From Tubulanus polymorphus (Eukaryota; Nemertea; Palaeonemertea; Tubulaniformes; Tubulanidae): DNA of 64,000 bases. This document shows positions 1,938 through 52,439 of the stretch, in pieces. How positions within the stretch are numbered: position 1 is the first letter of the stretch; every line of letters starts with the position of its first letter. The position numbers and the translations under genes were made by a program. Location: the NCBI RefSeq assembly GCF_964204645.1, contig NC_134033.1, positions 2,105,631-2,169,630 of the forward strand, given 5' to 3'. The notes beneath the pieces are model-generated. The model had not been told where the DNA came from. It ran no database searches and saw nothing but the letters and a program-made list of their open reading frames with translations.

Positions 1938-4807
1938 CTTGATGTCTTCTGATTTGATCTGTTCGATTTTTCCGTTGCGCAACACGTACGCCGGGCGTCG
2001 GTTGACGTCGTTGTCGGCTTTGTGACGCAACCAATCCTCGTAACCCTGTTTGATGGCGGTCACCGAGATCACGAATATCAACGGCAAAATACTGGTCGCC
2101 GGCGACACCGGCGTGTCGATAGTCAACTGAAAAAAAAAAACATTTGAATTTTGAAATAACTGAAAAAATATTCGAATTTTGAATTTCTAAGGTGTGTCAA
2201 TAGTTAACTGAAAAAAGCTCATTTGAAATTTGAATTTCTAAAGCATGTCGACAGTTAACTGAAAAAGCTCATTTGAATTTTGAATTTCTAAGGCATGTCG
2301 ACAGTTAACTGAAAAAGCTCATTTGAATTTTGAATTTCTAAGGCGTGTCGATAGTTAACTGAAAAAAGCTCATTTGAAATTTGAATTTCTAAGGCATGTC
2401 GACAGTTAACTGAAAAAAGCTCATTTGAAATTTGAATTTCTAAAGCATGTCGACAGTTAACTGAAAAAGCTCATTTAAATTTTGAATTTCTAAGGCGTGT
2501 CGACAGTTAACTGAAAAAGCTCATTTGAATTTTGAATTTCTAAGGCGTGTCGATAGTTAACTGAAAAAAGCTCATTTGAAATTTGAATTTCTAAGGCATG
2601 TCGACAGTTAACTGAAAAAAGCTCATTTGAATTTTGAATTTCTAAGGCGTGTCGATAGTCAACTGAAAAAAGCTCATTTGAAATTTGAATTTCTAAGGCG
2701 TGTCGATAGTTAACTGAAAAAAGCTCATTTGAAATTTGAATTTCTAAGGCGTGTCGATAGTTAACTGAAAAAAGCTCATTTGAAATTTGAATTTCTAAGG
2801 CGTGTCGATAGTTAACTGAAAAAAGCTCATTTGAAATTTGAATTTCTAAGGCGTGTCGATAGTTAACTGAAAAAAGCTCATTTGAAATTTGAATTTCTAA
2901 GGCATGTCTATAGTTAACTGAAAAAAACTCACTTGAAATTTGAATTTCTAAAGCATGTCAACAGTTAACTGAAAAAAGCTCATTTGAAATTTGAATTTCT
3001 AAGGCATGTCTATAGTTAACTGAAAAAAACTCACTTGAAATTTGAATTTCTAAAGCATGTCAACAGTTAACTGAAAAAGCTCATTTGAAATTTGAATTTC
3101 TAAGGCATGTCTATAGTTAACTGAGAAAAATAATAAATTTGAATTTTGAAATAACTGACTTGCACCCGGTGATAAGGCACTGAAAAAATACATTTGAATT
3201 TTGAATTTCTAAGGCGTGTCAATAGTTACTGAAAAAAAAACTACTTCAAATTTGAATTTCTAAGACATGCCCATAGTTAACTGAAAAACTCATTTGAATT
3301 TTGAATTGCTAAGGCGTGTCGATAGTCAACTGAAAAAAGCTGATTTGAATTTCTAAGGCATGTCGACATTCACCTCAAAGGCATATCAATTGTCAATTGA
3401 AAATCAAATCTTTTTGGAAAATTGTGGAAAAACCAAATTTTTACTTTGCCATAAAAAATGTTTTTTTTTTAGATTCTAAAATTATTACAATTTCTAAGGC
3501 TGTTGTCCAATCTTGCGGTTACGAATGATCAAAATGGGAAAACCAAGATCCGGATGACATAAAACAAGATAAACAAACTGAACAATCAACCCGCACCCTA
3601 TTAACATGTAATTCGACACACGTAAACCTCCCGCTGGGAAACGAAGAACGAACTTTTCGCTGTCCTCACCTGAATGATCCCGATGCATAGGAAATAGAAG
3701 TTGGCGATTCGTTGAAATTGCTCGAACAGATTTTTCGGCAAGAAATTCCATAACGTGTACTGAAAACGATAAACGACATGATCAGAGAAACTTTTAACGA
3801 CAATCAGCGACAAACCTGACAACCCCCCCATCCCAGAGACTCACGTAACCTCGTCCCATCCAACCCTAGGTACAGACACGGGTGCGGGTTACAACACTGA
3901 GATCTGTTACGGTTAACATTTAGAATTCAAATCATCCACAGTTTAATGAATTTGAAGTTCTATGTCAATATTCTAAATCTCAGAGCCAATCCGCAACTCT
4001 TCAATGCAAATTGGTCTTAAATCTACACAGAAAATTGTTCTAAATTAAAACCGATAAATGGCTACTTTACTTGCCTTAAAGATTTAAGACCACTTTTGGA
4101 TGTAAGACCAGTCTAAGCTCATTTTGGTTCTATAACCAATCTAACAACTTAAGACCAGTCAAAGCTCATTTTAGTTCTATAACCAATCTAACAACTTAAG
4201 ACCAGTCTAAGCTCATTTTAGTTCTATAACCAATCTAACAACTTAAGACCAGTCTAAGCTCATTTTAGTTCTATAACCAATCTAACAACTTAAGACCAGT
4301 CTAAGCTCATTTTAGTTCTATAACCAATCTAACAACTTAAGACCAGTCTAAGCTCATTTTAGTTCTATAACCAATCTAACAACTTAAGACCAGTCTAAGC
4401 TCATTTTGGTTCTATAGCCAATCTTACAACTTTAGATCAGGCAAAGTTCATTTTAATTCTAGGCCTATCCAGGGGGTAGCACCAGGGCAACGTGCTACCC
4501 TCTAAATTTTCAGTTGGCTGACCCCGAAAATCTTTCCCGTAACAGATTTGGTACCATCTGAGAAAGTCTAAAGGATCCTAATGTGATATCTCTTTGGATG
4601 AAACAAGCTGAAATGGCATCTGCAGCAGGGGGGGGCTTATTTTTCAAATTGTTCCTGGAGAAGGGTAACCTTTTGGTTGATACTAACCTTGGAAGAGATG
4701 ATTTTATTATTGACGTAATGCTCCGGTATATAGACCTCTACGTCGGGTACTGGATGGTTGTTGATATAAACGGTTCGATTCTCGGGACGCGGTGGCGGTC
4801 CGCAACC
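1938..4807 (-). CDS. Phospholipid-transporting P4-ATPase, ATP11-like (partial, N-terminal exons)
   Basis: Three in-phase exons (4807-4688, 3759-3670, 2126-1938) encode the start of a P4-ATPase flippase, which moves aminophospholipids to the cytosolic leaflet. The first has TVYINN and IISSK; the second reads [15 protein letters not shown] then FYFL, the entry to transmembrane helix 1; the third has DTPVSPATS and [19 protein letters not shown], covering helix 2 and the start of the actuator region. The spacing and motifs fit ATP11A/B/C best among P4-ATPases. All three exons are phase 0 at both ends. The first exon with the start codon was not found; exons for the actuator, DKTGT phosphorylation and nucleotide-binding regions lie to the left of the window. 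The intron 2127-3669 carries an array of acceptor copies. Family call firm; the exact paralogue is inference. Confidence 0.93.
2146..3385 (-). repeat. 51-bp intronic array copying the downstream 3' splice site
   Basis: About 22 copies of a 51-bp unit inside the flippase intron. Read on the gene strand each unit holds a T-run, CAG, then TTAACTATCGACACGCC, nearly the first 17 bases of the real exon (TTGACTATCGACACGCC, 2126-2110), then TTAGAAATTC. Each unit is therefore a copy of the true acceptor plus exon start. If used, a decoy would read LTIDTP and then stop (TAG). The copy near 3317 keeps the exon's GTCAACTG exactly. Confidence 0.92.
3889..4445 (+). repeat. 47-bp minisatellite with leader, copy B
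   Basis: Second copy of the block at 1305-1905 in the same orientation, with the same leader and about seven 47-bp units. It lies in the intron between the first and second flippase exons seen here, so the two copies bracket exons 3759-3670 and 2126-1938. Confidence 0.85.
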
Positions 4808-31430: not shown

Positions 31431-34400
31431 ATGGAAGTCGTATTGTTCGCCGGAATAGTTTGTTTAAGCTTTTTGCAGACGGGTAAGCTTGATATTTCTG
31501 CGGATTTGAAGATAAATCTAATAATCAAATAGACGACGGCACCACGCGTCGCTTCCAATTCCATCCATGGCTACTTCGTACCGATTCTTTAAATTACAGT
31601 CTATAACAGACTGACGAGCCCCTTTTTTCCGGATTGCCTATTAAAGTCATTATGAAACAATATTAGAGAGAAGCCCAAACTCCACTTACTTATACCCAGT
31701 CTGACAGCCACTGCTGTGCAGTTGGTGTCCTGCAATCTGCATTTCAATCAGCTTAATTTCTTCTTAAAGTTAAACCAAAACAAACATGGATATTGTCTTT
31801 AAGTTGTAGCAGTGGCCTACCCCCTTCTTGGCTCTTAAACTCCAACGTATTTCATTCAATTTGCCCCCAACCTGAATATATCTGCATATTAGTTTAATTT
31901 TTTTTTCAAATTTCAGCTGCTCTCGACGTCTGCCGCCAATACCCGTGTCACGGTGGGGCGAAATGCGTCGTTGAAAGTTCTGGGTTTTCCCGAATTTGTC
32001 AATGTTCCGAAAATTCCGTCTATAATTACGGTCAAGGAAAATGTGAACCAAAAAAAGTAAAACCTCCGACAGTTTGCGAGCAATACCCGTGTCACGGTGG
32101 GGCGAAATGCGTCGTTGAAAGTTCTGGGTTTTCCCGAATTTGTCAATGTTCCGAAAATTCCGTCTACAATTACGGTCAAGGAAAATGTGAACCAAAAAAA
32201 GTAAAACCTCCGACAGTTTGCGAGCAATACCCGTGTCACGGCGGGGCGAAATGCGTCGTTGAAAGTTCTGGGTTTTCCCGGATTTGTCAATGTCCCGAAA
32301 ATTCCGTCTACAATTACGGTCAAGGAAAATGTGAACCAAAAAAAGTAAAACCCCCGACAGTTTGCGAGCAATACCCGTGTCACGGCGGGGCGAAATGCGT
32401 CGTTGAAAGTTCTGGGTTTTCCCGAATTTGTCAATGTCCCGAAAATTCCGTCTATAATTACGGTCAAGGAAAATGTGAACCGAAAAAAGTGAAACCTCCG
32501 ACAGTTTGCGAGCAATACCCGTGTCACGGCGGGGCGAAATGTGTCGTTGAAAGTTCTGGGTTTTCCCGAATTTGTCAATGTTCCGAAAATTCCGTCTACA
32601 ATTACGGTCAAGGAAAATGTGAACCAAAAAAAGTAAAACCTCCGACAGTTTGCGAGCAATACCCGTGTCACGGCGGGGCGAAATGCGTCGTTGAAAGTTC
32701 TGGGTTTTCCCGGATTTGCGTGTGTCCGCTCGCCAATCAAAAATACGAATACAGCCGCGGAGTTTGTAAAGCGCCACCTGTAAAGAAATTAACCGTCTGC
32801 CAGCGATACCCGTGCCACGGCGGCGCGAATTGCGTCGTCGAGTCGTCCGGATTTTCCCGAATTTGCGTCTGCCCGCGAAAAGGCGCCGTTTATAGCTATA
32901 CCCGAGGCGTCTGCGTCCCGCCGAAAATCACGTCCACGACGCCCGTGACGACAACCAACAATGAGCCGGTCTCTTCCGCATTACCCACGATGACCGAAAC
33001 GGAGTTTGTTTCCACTCGCGGAAAAGTAGTCGATTCCGAACATCAGATTTGCCAGAAACACCGATGTAAGGGCGGGGCGAAGTGCGTCGCGGAAAGTTCC
33101 GGGATTTCCCGAATTTGCGTCTGTCCCGAAAAAGATTTCGTTTACGATTACCGAAAAGGATTTTGCATAGGTCCGAAAGTTTCTACTGCGACAATCGTAT
33201 CCAAGCCAATATCGGTGAATGCAGAAGGATTGCCACGTCGGACGACAACAGTTGCTACAGCACGGAATGAACCGGTTGCGAAAGTTCCGTCTGACAGAGT
33301 TGTAAAGGTGCCTCATATCCGGACAACTTCTCGACCTCTCGCTACAACAGAGATGGCTGAAGAAAGTGTGGTGACTTACAGCGAGGAAGAAGTGGAAATA
33401 ATTCCTGAAACCATCACACCGAAATTTAAAGTTTTTAGAGATTTTGAGGATGCTGAGTCTGTTACTATAAAGACAGTGGAAGATGCTTCTAGACATGAAC
33501 CTGACATTCCGGAAGTCGAGGGCGTGGAAATTGAAAATAAGATGGAAAATCCAGAATCCGAAGAAGTTGTGATTGATAATGAATCTGATGTGGGAACTAC
33601 TGCTAAAACTGGTGAAGAAATTGCAGAAATTCCTGAATTTGTTACAACTGAAATTCCGGAGATTCCTGAAGATTTCGACGTCGATAACGAGATTTTTATC
33701 GATGAAACAATGGCACCGGTTACCGAGCAAGAACTGGAACTTTTTACCGAAGCCACGCAAATAATATCCGAGTCGGAAGGACCGGGAATTGATGATGAAG
33801 TTTTAGAATCTCAGCACAAAGGAGAGCGGAGTGAGCTGGAAGGATCTGAATCTGTAGAGAACACAATTTCTGAAGTTCCGACTATGAAAACTGTACTACC
33901 AGAGGTTGTTACTCGAGGTGGTGATATACCTGAACTATTGACAGAGGCCACAAAAGGGATATCTGATTTGAGAGAGGCAGAAAATGAAGAAATAGAGAAT
34001 ATTGAAAATGTTGTAACGATTAAAAGTGAAGCTGAAGTTGTAACTGAAATACCTGAACTATTGACAGAGGGGAGAGAGGCAGAAACAGAAGAAGAAATTA
34101 CTGAATCCCAAATCGAAGTCCAGACTGTAAAAGTCGTACCTGAGGTTGTGAAGAGTGAAGAAATCCCCCCGTTCAAAGGGATTGAAAATTCGAAACAGGG
34201 TATAGAACCTTCGGTGACCAATATTGAGGATGTTACCCCTCAAAATAGTGAAGAAATCTCCGAGTTTGAGATTGATAATACGGCTGGATTGTCTCAATTT
34301 TCAGCAGTAGGTCAAACTGCAGTTACTCAACATGGAGAAATTGTCAAAGACACAGACGTAAATGTCGAAACATTACCACCTGAGTTAGTAACACTGCATG

Positions 34401-37400
34401 AAGAGTTTGGTGAGGTTGTTACCCCTCAAAATAGTGAAGAAATCTCCGAGTTTGAGATTGATAATACGGCTGGAGTGTCTCAATTTTCGGCAGTAGGTCA
34501 AACTGCAGTTACTCAACATGGAGAAATTATCAAAGACACAGACGTAAATGTCAAAACATTACCACCTGAGTTAGTAACACTGCATGAAGAGTTTGGTGAG
34601 GACGTGGAGGAAATTTCTGAACCGAAAGAAAAAGTTGAAAAAATGAAAACTTTCACTGAACCCGGTGAAATTATTGAGAATTTACCCGAGGAATTCGAAG
34701 CAGAAAGTACAACCGCGATTGGAGGTCAATACGAGTCTGAGGTTGTGTCTGAACACGCTGAAGTGGAGCCCGGTTTAGGGATCGATAATATCGAAGAAGA
34801 GGGCGCTGCTTTAGGTCAACTCGAAGTAAATTTGAAACCTATTCGAGATGAATCAGCAACGAAAGTTTCGCAATACGAAGGAATCAATGAACTTATCGAT
34901 GAACATGAGCCCAGAGCTGTTACAAAGACACCAACAGAAGATGAAATCGGGGTGAAAATTGAATCTGAATTCAGTAGGAAATTTATAGCATCAACTCCTC
35001 AGACGTTCGGACGAAGAAAATCGACAAGAGTTCCATATCCATCGATGAAAGTGTCTACAATTGTTCCTAAGGTGCAGCAGACGGCCTCTGAGCAGACGGC
35101 TACTGAGCAGACGGCTACTGAGCAGACAGCTCCTGAGCTGACGGCTTCCAAGCAGACGGCTTCTGAGCGGACGTTTACTGGGCAGACGGCTGCTGAAGAG
35201 GTTGATGATGATTCGTCTGGTGCCTTACCCCGGAATCAGATTATGACGAATGAAGGCAATGTTTTTGAAGAAGAACCGCTTGAAATCGAACTCGGACAAT
35301 TAACAACTGTTGAAGAATCTGAATCAGATTTAGGAACGACTGTTGCATCATCGCGTGTGAAATCCTCGACAGTAGCGTGTAAGGTCGAGAACTCAGAAGA
35401 ATCTTGCGTCGCTGAGTCGAAATCCCCGATTCCGACGGCGATCGGCTACTGGTCTCTAAACCGAGCGGCAGACGGCACGAGAGATCTGTCCGGAAACGAG
35501 CACGATATGATCGCTGCGGACGGCGCCGCGCTTGTCGAAGGTTGCGGACCCCAGCGTAACTGGACATACTACGAACTCGCCGGCTCGGGACAATACCTGA
35601 AAATCGTCAACGACGACTCCGCTTTGACGATGAACCGGAGAAACTTTACGTTCGTCGCGTATTTCAAATTCGAGAAGCCGTTACGCGACGCGCCGTTGTT
35701 CGAATGGTACGAAGCAACGTACGGGGTTCACGTTTGGATCGTGAACGGTCGATTTTACGTGAATCTGTTGAGCGTCGAGCGCACGACAATGACGACGGCG
35801 ACTCGGTTCTACCACGGCGCCCCGGTCATCCCCGACGTGTGGACTTTCGTCGCGCTCACCTACGATCGTTCCATCGGTCGAATGAAGTTCGTCATCGACG
35901 GCGCCGTCGAAACGCACGACGTCGGCGTTTACGAAATCGATACCGCCGGCGACATCTATATCGGGATGACTCCCGGTCGTCTGCCGTCCCTGCACGGTGG
36001 CGTCACCTGTGTGCAGCTGTACGATGTCGCCCTCAATTCGCAGAAACTTCGACGTATCAGATGGAAATGTCAGCGAGGTAAGTTTTCGATATTAACAAGA
36101 TAATTCACTTAATTCGGATCACTAATTTTGCGTACTTGAAATATCAGGTGTATGTGATAAATGGACGACTTCTTGATTCAATTAGTTAAGAAAATGGCAA
36201 CATTCTCGGCCAGACTGAATTCAAATTTGAAATTCTACTTTCAATCTCTGTTGGGCAAAACTTTCTTACTCTAGTTCGAAAATTTTGAAGAAAAGTCAAA
36301 TCAGATTCGTAAACCCTTTTGAGTCCAGTTTTGACACTAAACTGTAGAACTGGGATTAATTTGAAGATCGATGATTTTTGTTGCAGATCAAATGTTGTCT
36401 CGTGCCGTCCCGAAAACAACGACTATCTCCGAAAGACGTCAGTCTGCCACAACCAGACATCCGTCTGCCACAACCAGACATCCATCAGCCACGAACACAC
36501 ATCCGTCTGCCACAACTGAACATCCCTCTGCCAAGACTAGGCATCCATCTGCCAAAACTAAACATCCGTCTGCCACAACCAGACATCCGTCTGCCACAAC
36601 TAAACATCCGTCTGCTAAGACAAGGCATCCGTCGGCCACAACCAGACCTCTGTCTGCCACAACTAAACATACATCTGCTACAACCACACATCCGTCTGCC
36701 CCATCAACTTTAACTTCTCGTGTTATCGATTTTATCTACTCAACAATCTGGCCGTTGGTCGATGAAACTTCAAAGAAATCAAGTGAAAACGATGCTAGTC
36801 GTCGACAAGGTCAGATTCCCTCCGATTTTTCTGAAACCGTTGAACCTGAAGAGGGCTCGGGTGAAGACACGGCAACAATTAGAATAGCATCGCAGAGTCG
36901 AACAGAAGAAGGGTCTGGATCGAAAGGATTCTTTGAAAAATCTGATCTGGTGACCGAGAGTATTGAAATACCCGGGACTGAGAGCTATTCTGAATTATGG
37001 ATGGGAAAAAACACAGAAATCAAGGCGGATGAGACAACTGAACTGCTGACTGAGGTGCCGAGCGAGGTTTCGACTGAGGTGCCAAGTGAGGTTCCGACTG
37101 AACTGCCAACAGAAGTACCAACTGAACTGCCAACAGAAGTACCAACTGAACTGTCAACAGAAGTACCAACTGAACTGTCAACAGAAGTACCAACTGAACT
37201 GTCAACAGAAGTACCAACTGAACTGCCAACAGAAGTACCAACTGAACTGTCAACAGAAGTACCAACTGAACTGCCAACAGAAGTACCAACTGAACTGTCG
37301 ACAGAGATGCCAGCTGAGCTACCAACTGAAGTACCAACTGAGGTTCCTAATGAGGTCTCAACTGAGGTACCAACTGAGGTACCAACTGAGCTGCCAGAAC

Positions 37401-43259: not shown

Positions 43260-46200
43260 ATGAGTTCAGCGAGCAAGGTAATCATTTCTGTTGATAATAA
43301 ACGTCGTATTTTCTTAGAATTGATAAATATTTTCTTAGAAAATCGATTGGATAAAAAAAATGAGATTAAAATGAGAAATCGCGCTACGTACCGAAACATA
43401 ACGATGAAAATTCAATACTTCAATTTGTCTGAGCTTTGATTCGAAACGTACCAATTTATCAGTGATTGATTTCATATCCTAAATCATTGTTTGTAAACAT
43501 TCATAAGGATTTGGTCTTGCAGCGTCACCTTAGGGACGCCTAAACTGTCTGACTGACAGGTCCTGGGCCCCTGGCGGAATTGCAGAAAAAATTTAGGAGC
43601 TTTAACCTCAAAAAGATAATTTCGAACATTTGTAATTTTCATTATTTTTTATCCTCAAAAATTTAATTTCAAACTTTTTTAATTTTCACCATTTTCTATT
43701 CATTCTAGGTTGGTGAGATTTTCACGGCCGCAGGGCTTGCGTTCAGTAAACTGGGTGAATTGACAATGCAGCTCCACCCGAGCGCAGATGCTCCGCCAAA
43801 GTGAGTATCCCAAGAAAGACGAAATAACTTTTTGAGTTTTCCGGAGTATTTTTTTTGTGTTAAGTGTCATCGGATTAAAAAGTGAAAAATTGAAATTTTC
43901 CGCTTTTAATTTTCTAGTCCGATATTAACCAATTCAAGCATCGAAATAAGTGAAGAAACCAGTTCGAATTATTTCCTATTTTTTGGTCAACATTTGTCTC
44001 AATTTTATGAGATAGGTCTAGATACTAGTTTCTTATAGAACCGAAATGAGCTCATGAAAGATCAAACACTTTACCTACTGGGGCCTTACGATTCCTTATT
44101 GATCGATTCCTTCGAAACTCCTCACAGAAAATGCTTTTCAAGGTGCTTTAAACTCCTTTGATTTGAACGAAATACAGGAAACTGCTTTAAAAATCCTTTA
44201 GATCTCCATCAATTTTGAGAAATTATCAATTAGAAATGTTTGTAGTTGTACTGTAAATTATACCTCAACCGATACGGTTCGTTGGGACCAGGATTTGTTT
44301 TTTCCCCAATCGGGCGGTTTCTGAATTGGAAAGAATTTAGGTAATGTATAGGATAGAAATTTGCTTACGAAACCACTGAATTAATGGTTTACTGAGATAA
44401 ACAAGTCTACTGTAATTGAGATATGAAAATAATGCAGACACTGTTTTGAAATTTGAAAATCTTGAAAACTCCTTATATCCAGGAATGACTGATCTGTAGG
44501 CACCCTGTTAAAATTCTTTATATCCAGGAATGACTGATATGTAGGCACCCTGTTAAAACTCCTTATATCCAGGAATGACTGATATCTGTAGGAACCCTGT
44601 TAAAACTCCTTATATCCAGGAATGACTGATATCTGTAGGCACCCTGTTAAAACTCCTTATATCCAGGAATGACTGATATCTGTAGGGACCCTGTTAAAAC
44701 TCCTTATATCCAGGAATGACTGATATCTGTAGGGACCCTGTTAAAACTCCTTATATCCAGGAATGACTGATATCTGTAGGGACCCTGTTAAAACTCCTTA
44801 TATCCAGGAATGACTGATATCTGTAGGGACCCTGTTAAAACTCCTTATATCCAGGAATGACTCAGCTGTAGGCACCCTGTTAAAACTCCTTATATCCAGG
44901 AATGACTGATCTGTAGGCACCCTGTTAAAACTCCTTATATCCAGGAATGACTGATATCTGTAGGAACCCTGTTAAAACTCCTTATATCCAGGAATGACTG
45001 ATATCTGTAGGGACCCTGTTAAAACTCCTTATATCCAGGAATGACTGATATCTGTAGGAACCCTGTTAAAACTCCTTATATCCAGGAATGACTGATATCT
45101 GTAGGAACCCTGTTAAAACTCCTTATATCCAGGAATGACTGATATCTGTAGGGACCATGTTAAATCTCCTTTTATCCAGGAATGACTGATATCTGTAGGC
45201 ACCCTGTTAAAACTCCTTATATCCAGGAATGACTGATCTGTAGGAACCCTGTTAAAACTCCTTATATCCAGGAATGACTGATATCTGTAGGCACCCTGTT
45301 AAAACTTCTTATATCCAGGAATGACTGATATCTGTAGGCACCCTGTTAAAACTCCTTATATCCAGGAATGACTGATATCTGTAGGAACCCTGTTAAAACT
45401 CCTTATATCCAGGAATGACTGATATCTGTAGGGACCCTGTTAAAACTCCTTATATCCAGGAATGACTCAGCTGTAGGCACCCTGTTAAAACTCCTTATAT
45501 CCAGGAATGACTGATCTGTAGGAACCCTGTTAAAACTCCTTATATCCAGGAATGACTGATCTGTAGGAACCCTGTTAAAACTCCTTATATCCAGGAATGA
45601 CTGATATCTGTAGGCACCCTGTTAAAACTCCTTATATCCAGGAATGACTGATATCTGTAGGAACCCTGTTAAAACTCCTTATATCCAGGAATGACTGATA
45701 TCTGTAGGGACCCTGTTAAAACTCCTTATATCCAGGAATGACTGATCTGTAGGAACCCTGTTAAAACTCCTTATATCCAGGAATGACTCAGCTGTAGGCA
45801 CCCTGTTAAAACTCCTTATATCCAGGAATGACTGATCTGTAGGAACCCTGTTAAAACTCCTTATATCCAGGAATGACTGATCTGTATGGACCCTGTTAAA
45901 ACTCCTTATATCCAGGAATGACTCAGCTGTAGGCACCCTGTTAAAACTCCTTATATCCAGGAATGACTGATCTGTAGGAACCCTGTTAAAACTCCTTATA
46001 TCCAGGAATGACTGATCTGTAGGAACCCTGTTAAAACTCCTTATATCCAGGAATGACTGATCTGTATGGACCCTGTTAAAACTCCTTATATCCAGGAATG
46101 ACTCAGCTGTAGGCACCCTGTTAAAACTCCTTATATCCAGGAATGACTGATCTGTAGGAACCCTGTTAAAACTCCTTATATCCAGGAATGACTGATCTGT

Positions 46201-49200
46201 AGGAACCCTGTTAAAACTCCTTATATCCAGGAATGACTGATCTGTATGGACCCTGTTAAAACTCCTTATATCCAGGAATGACTCAGCTGTAGGCACCCTG
46301 TTAAAACTCCTTATATCCAGGAATGACTGATCTGTAGGGACCCTGTTAAAACTCCTTATATCCAGGAATGACTGATATCTGTAGGGACCCTGTTAAAACT
46401 CCTTATATCCAGGAATGACTGATCTGTATGGACCCTGTTAAAACTCCTTATATCCAGGAATGACTCAGCTGTAGGCACCCTGTTAAAACTCCTTATATCC
46501 AGGAATGACTGATCTGTAGGGACCCTGTTAAAACTCCTTATATCCAGGAATGACTGATATCTGTAGGGACCCTGTTAAAACTCCTTATATCCAGGAATGA
46601 CTGATATCTGTATGGACCCTGTTAAAACTCCTTATATCCAGGAATGACTGATATCTGTAGGGACCCTGTTAAAACTCCTTATATCCAGGAATGACTGATC
46701 TGTATGGACCCTGTTAAAACTCCTTATATCCAGGAATGACTGATCTGTATGGACCCTGTTAAAACTCCTTATATCCAGGAATGACTGATCTGTAGGCACC
46801 CTGTTAAAACTCCTTATATCCAGGAATGACTGATATCTGTAGGAACCCTGTTAAAACTCCTTATATCCAGGAATGACTGATATCTGTAGGGACCCTGTTA
46901 AAACTCCTTATATCCAGGAATGACTGATATCTGTAGGGACCCTGTTAAAACTCCTTATATCCAGGAATGACTGATATCTGTAGGCACCCTGTTAAAACTC
47001 CTTATATCCAGGAATGACTGATATCTGTAGGCACCCTGTTAAAACTCCTTATATCCAGGAGTGACTGATATCTGTAGGCACCCTGTTAAAAAACTCCTTA
47101 TATCCAGGAATAACTGATCTGTATGGACCCTGTTAAAACTCCTTATATCCAGGAATGACTGATATCTGTAGGAACCCTGTTAAAACTCCTTATATCCAGG
47201 AATGACTGATCTGTAGGAACCCTGTTAAATCTCCTTATATCCAGGAATGACTGATCTGTATGGACCCTGTTAAAACTCCTTATATCCAGGAATGACTGAT
47301 CTGTATGGACCCTCTGGATATATATTTTCAATTCAGTTTTACTAAGTGTAAGTCGTAGGATAAGTCATCAACGTTCCACTTTTTCTGGGCAACCTTACAG
47401 ACCCCGGGGGTGTGAGAGGCAGGAGGGTCAAACTACAAATGAGGTTTTTCTTTGACCTCGGGGGGGTGAGAGAGGCGGGAGGGTCGAACTACAAGAGAGG
47501 TTTTCTTCGACCCCGAGGGTGTGAGAGGAGGGTCGAAGGACAACGAGAGAGGTCTATCTTCTTAAAACGAGACGATTGTTTTGTTTAATTCAGCAGCGCA
47601 AGCAAGTGGTCGCAGGAAGAGATCGAGATGTTACGCACGGCGATCACGAGGTTCGGCGACGATTTACAGAAACTCAGCGATCGTATCAAAAATAAAACCG
47701 TGTAAGTTGCCGTCGGCCGCCTTCACCCCGGGGCGGTTGGGGGGGGGTGGTGAGAATATATTGTGGAGAAAAAAAGAAAATTTCTGATTTGTAAAATTGA
47801 TCCGGGAATTAATAATCATGAGCTCATTTTGGTTCGCAATTAAGACCAGCTGAAAGATTTCAATTGCTCTGTCAGTCAATGCTTCGATTTTGTTTTTAAG
47901 ACGAACCACCCGGAACAAGTTATGCGTGAAAAATACAAAAACCATTTTTGTTAAGGCTAAAAATATTGATACCTTGTTTCTCATTTCTGCTGAGTTTAAA
48001 AGTTCACCCGACAGGCCACCTATCTACCCTGTACGTTACAATTTCATAATCGTGATCACTTTTACCATAACAGACCCAGCAGTTATAGAAATGAACTGAT
48101 TATAAATTTTATTATATTTTTACAAAATGACCCGGCCGATTGGGAGAAACAAGGTATCAGTTTTGTTTAACCTAAACATAAACTGTTTTAGGCTTAAACT
48201 GGATTTGAATTTAGAACATGTTGAATTAAAAAAATAATTTTCTCAGTATTTTAGACCGACTGGACCCAGAGCTGACCCTGTTTGATTATTTTCCAGATTT
48301 CAAATTCGTAACCAACTTCGAAAAACGGCGTTCGCCAAAGCCGAACTACCGCCGCCGATTCCGGAGACGGTTCCGCCGTTGGAGCAGACGTCGCCGACGA
48401 CGACCGCGACTACGGCGACCGCCGGAGGCCGGGAGAAAGCGTCAAAGAAAATAACGGTCATCAAAACGGAGAGCAGCGGCGCGTCGCAGGGCGGACCGCC
48501 AGCGAAAAAACAGAAAACGTCGAAAACGACGACGGTGCAAGGCGACGCGAATCTGATGACGTTGAACGCGTTGAATTCGGTCGAGGGCGAGGTCGACATC
48601 GAGACGATCGGCGAAACGGCGACCGTTAAAAAACTAGAGTTCGATTCCGGTATGTAGACAACAACGAGATTGTCATCTCTGTTTTCAGAGTTCTTGTCGA
48701 TCGGGAATTTGAAAGTCAGGGGGGACATCAACAGGGTCCCTACGACTCCTTGATTCCTTAAATACTCCTCATAAACGAAAAATGTTTTTAAAGGTGCTTG
48801 GAACTCCTTTAATTTGTACATAATGCCCGAAACTCCTTAAAAACTCCTTCAATCCGCTTTTGAGAAATATGCAATTAGACGCCTAAATCGGCAGTCAGAA
48901 CTAGGATTTTTGTTTTTACCAATTTGGCGGTTACCAAATTATAAACAGAGTTTAGTTAGTGTGAAGTATAAAGGTTACTTACAAAACCACTAGATTACTG
49001 GAGCCAGTTACTCAAAGGTTGGTTGGAGTTGACCAGTGGATAGTTGACGCAGTGACAATTAAAAGTTCATTGTTAGTATGGTATCTATCCACCGGTTAAC
49101 TTAAACCAGCTTTTGAGCAACTGACCCCTGGTTTACTGAGATAAACAGTGGAGTCTATAGTAATTGGGATATGAAAGTGATGCAGATGCTTCCTTGAAAT

Positions 49201-52073: not shown

Positions 52074-52439
52074 TACACAGTCGTGCCTACAAATCTAAAA
52101 AAGGTCTTAAGTCTTAAGACTGGTATTATGTTGTTAGATTGGTTATAGAACCAAAGCTTAGACTGGTCTTTAGTGGTTAGATTGGTTAATGGAACCAAAA
52201 TGAGCTTAGACCGGTCTTAAGTTGTTAGATAGGTTATAGAACCAAAATGAGCTTAGACTGGTCTTAAGTTGTTAGATTGGTTAACAGAACCAAAATGAGC
52301 CTAGACTGGTCTTAAGTTGTTAGATTGGTTAATGGAACCAAAATGAAGTTAGACTGATCTTAAGCTTTCAGATTGGCTATAGACCAGAAATGAACTTAGA
52401 CTGGTCTTAAATATAATCCATGACTGCGCAACTGTCCCC
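52074..52439. mobile_element. TIR element with internal 47-bp array, copy C
   Basis: GGGTCCAGCTACACAGTCGTG at the left and CATGACTGCGCAACTGTCCCC at the right are inverted ends. Between them are about six 47-bp units in the reverse orientation to copies A and B. Short, array-free relatives lie at 57272-57364 and 62270-62380. Confidence 0.75.

Follow-up and report, generated by a model that had tools for sequence, protein, structure and literature searches.

Directly before the true splice acceptor of a flippase exon lies a tandem array of look-alike acceptors, which raises the question of how such an array comes to be there and whether it acts as a switch or is a tolerated by-product of repeat expansion. 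The host is a partial P4-ATPase (lipid flippase, ATP11-type) gene on the minus strand, at the left end of the window (the whole 64,000-nucleotide stretch of DNA analysed); unless another locus is named, coordinates are window positions, and all features of the gene and its array are on the minus strand. An upstream exon (3670-3759), with a phase 0 donor, CAG/GTGAGG (a slash marks a boundary), is followed by a 1543-nt phase 0 intron (2127-3669), mostly occupied by the 51-bp array, and then by the true downstream exon (1938-2126), which ends ...SEDIK. The two exons, when joined, align without gaps to ATP11C structures (E ~1e-39). Their boundary falls inside the conserved ATP11C stretch LVQ/VTVDTPTSP, with ATP11C chains aligning across it, and the residues of the copied exon start are conserved at the same place in human ATP11C, from where the alignment continues through the exon. 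Further flippase exons lie on the same strand and are colinear, spanning ~26 kb, which is consistent with an intact gene.

The array was detected by TRF with a period of 51, 23.5 copies and 88% matches at 2157-3349; as delimited here it occupies 2157-3366, with ~24 units. On the gene strand a regular unit reads TTAACTATCGACACGCC TTAGAAATTCAAATTTCAAATGAGC TTTTTT CAG, in which the first 17 bases copy TTGACTATCGACACGCC, the start of the exon (2126-2110). All 22 in-register units contain a run of five to nine Ts (TTTTTCT in one), CAG, the exon copy and TTAG, the composition given in the preliminary description; these decoy acceptors with their exon copies begin at 3329, 3280, 3228, 3120, 3070, 3019, 2968, 2917, 2866, 2815, 2764, 2713, 2662, 2611, 2560, 2510, 2460, 2409, 2358, 2308, 2258 and 2207. 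That description had also put ~22 copies at 2110-3385, which is correct for the in-register units, but the array reaches ~3424 and has ~24 units, in an intron that starts at 3669. Likewise, the exon copy was said to carry one change; a G to A mismatch at position 3 is indeed found in most units, but ungapped identity to the first 17 exon bases varies (17/17 in two units, 16/17 in six and 12-15/17 in the others) and is low in unit 3228 owing to a slip that lost one base. The expectation that any decoy would read LTIDTP and then stop was borne out, with a stop within seven codons in the gene frame in 22/22 in-register units, after LTIDTP or a variant of it (unit 3228 reads an immediate TAA).

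Two extra T-run CAG sites in the array, at 3179 and 2159, are without an exon copy. At the far edge are two degenerate units (3330-3424), one recognisable (3379-3330) and one ~69% alike with its CAG changed to CAA (3424-3380). At the near edge the last unit before the exon (2127-2159) is missing its exon copy and has a T11 tract followed by the true acceptor CAG, such that the array, ending at 2127, is flush with the exon, starting at 2126, and in its register. The interior is homogenised, with four adjacent identical units (2866-2713), while the edges are divergent, as in the decayed units at 3424-3330; a local higher-order pattern, in which two unit types alternate, occurs at 3120-2917.

Other repeats are present in the window. 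A ~600-bp segment with a 47-bp tandem array flanks the boundary array on both sides (1290-1900 and 3886-4461, 85% alike); its single-copy part was found at these two positions only, and its 47-bp unit also forms an array in inverted orientation at 52117-52410. A large 47-bp array, with ~62 copies and 94% matches, lies at 44465-47313. A long open frame (31898-36103) contains coding repeats at 31937-32718 and 34225-34602, namely ~5 copies (97%) of a 144-bp EGF-like unit and two copies of a 186-bp unit, suggesting recent exon-internal expansion.

No array of this sort was said to have been described before, but arrays of the kind are already in print as mirages, minisatellite-like tandem duplications that span an intron/exon boundary, in the amphioxus genes Adh3, BflGb6, BflGb9, TnC and PGBD5 (PMC3087553, PMC3902484), the last two added by PMC3902484. 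Mirages were first described in lancelets, the founding paper being NAR 2002 (gkf386, PMC117041), and they have been proposed as raw material for new introns (PMC3087553). In the library searched, both papers found to cite the 2002 paper concern lancelets, and the wider literature may hold others.

Within the same genome we sampled 129 P4-ATPase and myosin exons (173 kb of sequence), of which three adjoin boundary-spanning arrays with exon bases in the repeat. Besides the flippase array, these comprise an acceptor mirage in a second flippase gene, a paralogue (L012 8186-8365, G000:C3), and a donor-side mirage in a myosin gene (L023 1364-1524, G000:C12). In L012, a 67-bp unit containing the intron end and the first 22 exon bases is present in 2.7 identical copies; its three acceptors do not differ at any of the last 20 bases of the intron or the first 22 of the exon. 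The two upstream ones are decoys, which have scores equal to that of the true acceptor and read DQRVPADSL and then stop. In L023, a 70-bp unit in ~2.4 copies repeats the exon end and donor, ...CTCGAAAAATCCCG/GTAAGA. Tandem arrays make up ~9% of the sampled DNA, and six further arrays lie within 15 bases outside sampled exon matches. Boundary-spanning arrays were rarer than under random placement (3 observed versus 9.6 expected), and attraction of arrays to exon edges was not established (9/60 at or near edges versus 4.9 expected with exons avoided, P = 0.06). The simplest reading is a minisatellite-dense genome in which a few arrays come to span splice boundaries and are tolerated. Arrays that start ~4-6 bases past a donor and contain no exon bases were also seen (L011 847-984, L013 3075-3346 and L031 416-607, the last from an exon match only).

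At the flippase locus, the proposal that a duplication capturing the acceptor and exon start expanded into a minisatellite is supported by the register and by ATP11C: conservation of the copied residues there shows the exon to be old, and hence the array to derive from the exon, not the reverse. The seed would have been a short tandem duplication across the intron 3' end and the first 17 exon nucleotides, with the junction ACGCC/TTAG, and the resulting minisatellite would have grown to ~24 units via slippage or unequal exchange, its middle being homogenised while the outer units decayed. Both the alternating unit types and the four identical neighbours fit slippage or unequal exchange. The TTAG junction might tentatively be traced to 3503-3489 (ACA-GCCTTAGAAATT), a candidate source that 14 of 500 shuffles equalled.

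The opposite direction, in which the array existed first and lent sequence to the exon, such that the exon start is itself a repeat copy, draws on the fact that the register alone is symmetrical. It is countered by the conservation of the encoded residues at the same place in human ATP11C and by the confinement of the array to its locus (a search of the whole 268-Mb genome with the real array, which has limits, placed the 51-bp array at the flippase locus only; an artificial trimer of the exon copy gave no match and was replaced by the real array as query), and we give such an exonised repeat next to no credence. Chance resemblance or an assembly artefact is scarcely more credible. Minisatellites are dense enough in this genome to invite the idea, but a 16/17 match has an arithmetical probability of ~3e-9 in one given register and still only ~3e-7 when every one of 51 offsets on either strand is allowed, collapse or mis-joining does not yield variant units and higher-order local patterns of this sort, and two similar boundary-spanning arrays exist elsewhere in the genome.

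Acceptor strength was compared using two simple models, built from 37 genome acceptors that were identified from protein continuity together with a donor match and without regard to the acceptor's own strength. Under both models the true acceptor falls at the 95th percentile of these 37 and is the strongest among 26 sites, whereas the decoy median falls at the 22nd, percentiles that are rough given the small set (n = 37); on this difference the true acceptor should usually win. Yet the decoy median also exceeds 95-96% of random AGs, and the decoys are not below the weakest fifth of genome acceptors, with 3228, 3120, 3019 and 2917 mid-range or better, so some decoy use would be expected. A poison exon in the strict sense is a cassette exon with an in-frame stop, which needs a donor downstream of the decoy acceptor. 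Good donors occur in two units only, within a donor-like stretch at 2933-3120 recognised from sequence only: two CAA/GTGAGT sites, both 6/7, with first intron bases at 3034 and 2932. Paired with decoys 3120 and 3019, these sites might delimit stop-containing exons of 86 and 87 nt.

Across the 22 units, the 13 columns of T-run, CAG and TTAG contain zero substitutions. Selection would be another possible explanation of this invariance, although these units are young and have been homogenised; for the three CAG columns alone it is unremarkable (p = 0.37). Most substitutions lie within the exon copy, mainly at the two CpG sites that it contains and in a few shared variant columns. The 22 units gave no sign that decoy AGs have been selectively retained or removed, in a test without power, and the array showed no unusual RNA structure (z = 0.10).

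We therefore favour, at a probability of roughly 85%, the reading that the array is a neutral mirage, tolerated as a side effect of repeat expansion and not serving as a switch, possibly with a small nonsense-decay tax. The spliceosome would mainly pick the outermost acceptor: no other site has so good a polypyrimidine tract, and at no other does a normal exon with its donor follow immediately. Stray splicing to a decoy would meet a stop within seven codons and probably end in nonsense-mediated decay, so the array would be tolerated and close to neutral. A functional throttle, by which decoys or the 86-87-nt stop exons (3120/3019 with donors 3034/2932) would route a share of flippase pre-mRNA into decay, a share that grows in proportion to the array, has in its favour the in-frame stops in 22/22 units, the four better decoys and the two 6/7 donors. 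However, the strongest site is the true acceptor, most decoys are weak and a donor is absent from most units; in amphioxus, RT-PCR suggested that mirages do not disturb splicing (PMC3087553), and the presence of such arrays in genes unrelated to one another points to repeat formation as a general process. We consider a throttle unlikely, and a shade less likely still the conjunction in which boundary-duplicating minisatellites recur in a non-chordate genome (3/129 sampled exons) and the length of the array also determines how much flippase mRNA is measurably lost to decoy splicing followed by nonsense decay.

The lineage of the host can be approached through its muscle myosin gene, which has four tandem cluster-3 alternative exons with splice sites, of the NLEDQIIDANPVLEAYGNAKT..RNNNSSRF type (L022 726-2544, G000:C4). 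Alternative myosin exons are found in all bilaterians except chordates, with echinoderms and hemichordates having cluster-8 only, and cluster-3 alternative exons are reported in protostome groups such as molluscs (PMC3912159); on this basis the host is probably a protostome, not a chordate. A search for mollusc haemocyanin, run without a positive control, gave no match, and no contig with mitochondrial COX1 was found. A mirage at the flippase locus would thus extend a phenomenon known, in the literature found, from lancelets to an apparently non-chordate genome, a cephalochordate host being the reported range and not something that the mechanism demands, and suggests that mirages appear wherever introns are minisatellite-dense. 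Boundary arrays are also natural tests of 3' splice-site choice: the true flippase acceptor is preceded by ~22 weaker look-alikes, while L012 provides a clean case, with three identical acceptors among which position or exon context alone can decide.

Among known systems, the human interferon-induced gene G1P3/IFI6 (6-16) has a minisatellite whose repeat units likewise carry splice sites (NAR 1995, as cited in PMC2572611), although these are donors according to the cited title, as opposed to acceptors in the flippase array, and the ABCA7 VNTR is likewise intronic and reported to affect splicing (PMC5954066). The amphioxus mirages differ in host, the flippase array sitting in a P4-ATPase gene of an apparently non-chordate genome. 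Units are 51 bp here compared with 150-160 bp in the amphioxus globins and 10-72 bp in Adh3, and number ~24 compared with 3-6 in BflGb6. What is shared is a minisatellite-like tandem duplication across an intron/exon boundary; a repeat composed, as in BflGb6, of the intron 3' end and the 5' portion of the exon; many units with decoy splice signals; and a homogenised interior with divergent ends. In every structural feature examined (tandem repetition, intron end and exon start within the unit, adjacency to the authentic boundary, and a homogenised interior with divergent edges), the flippase array matches a mirage.
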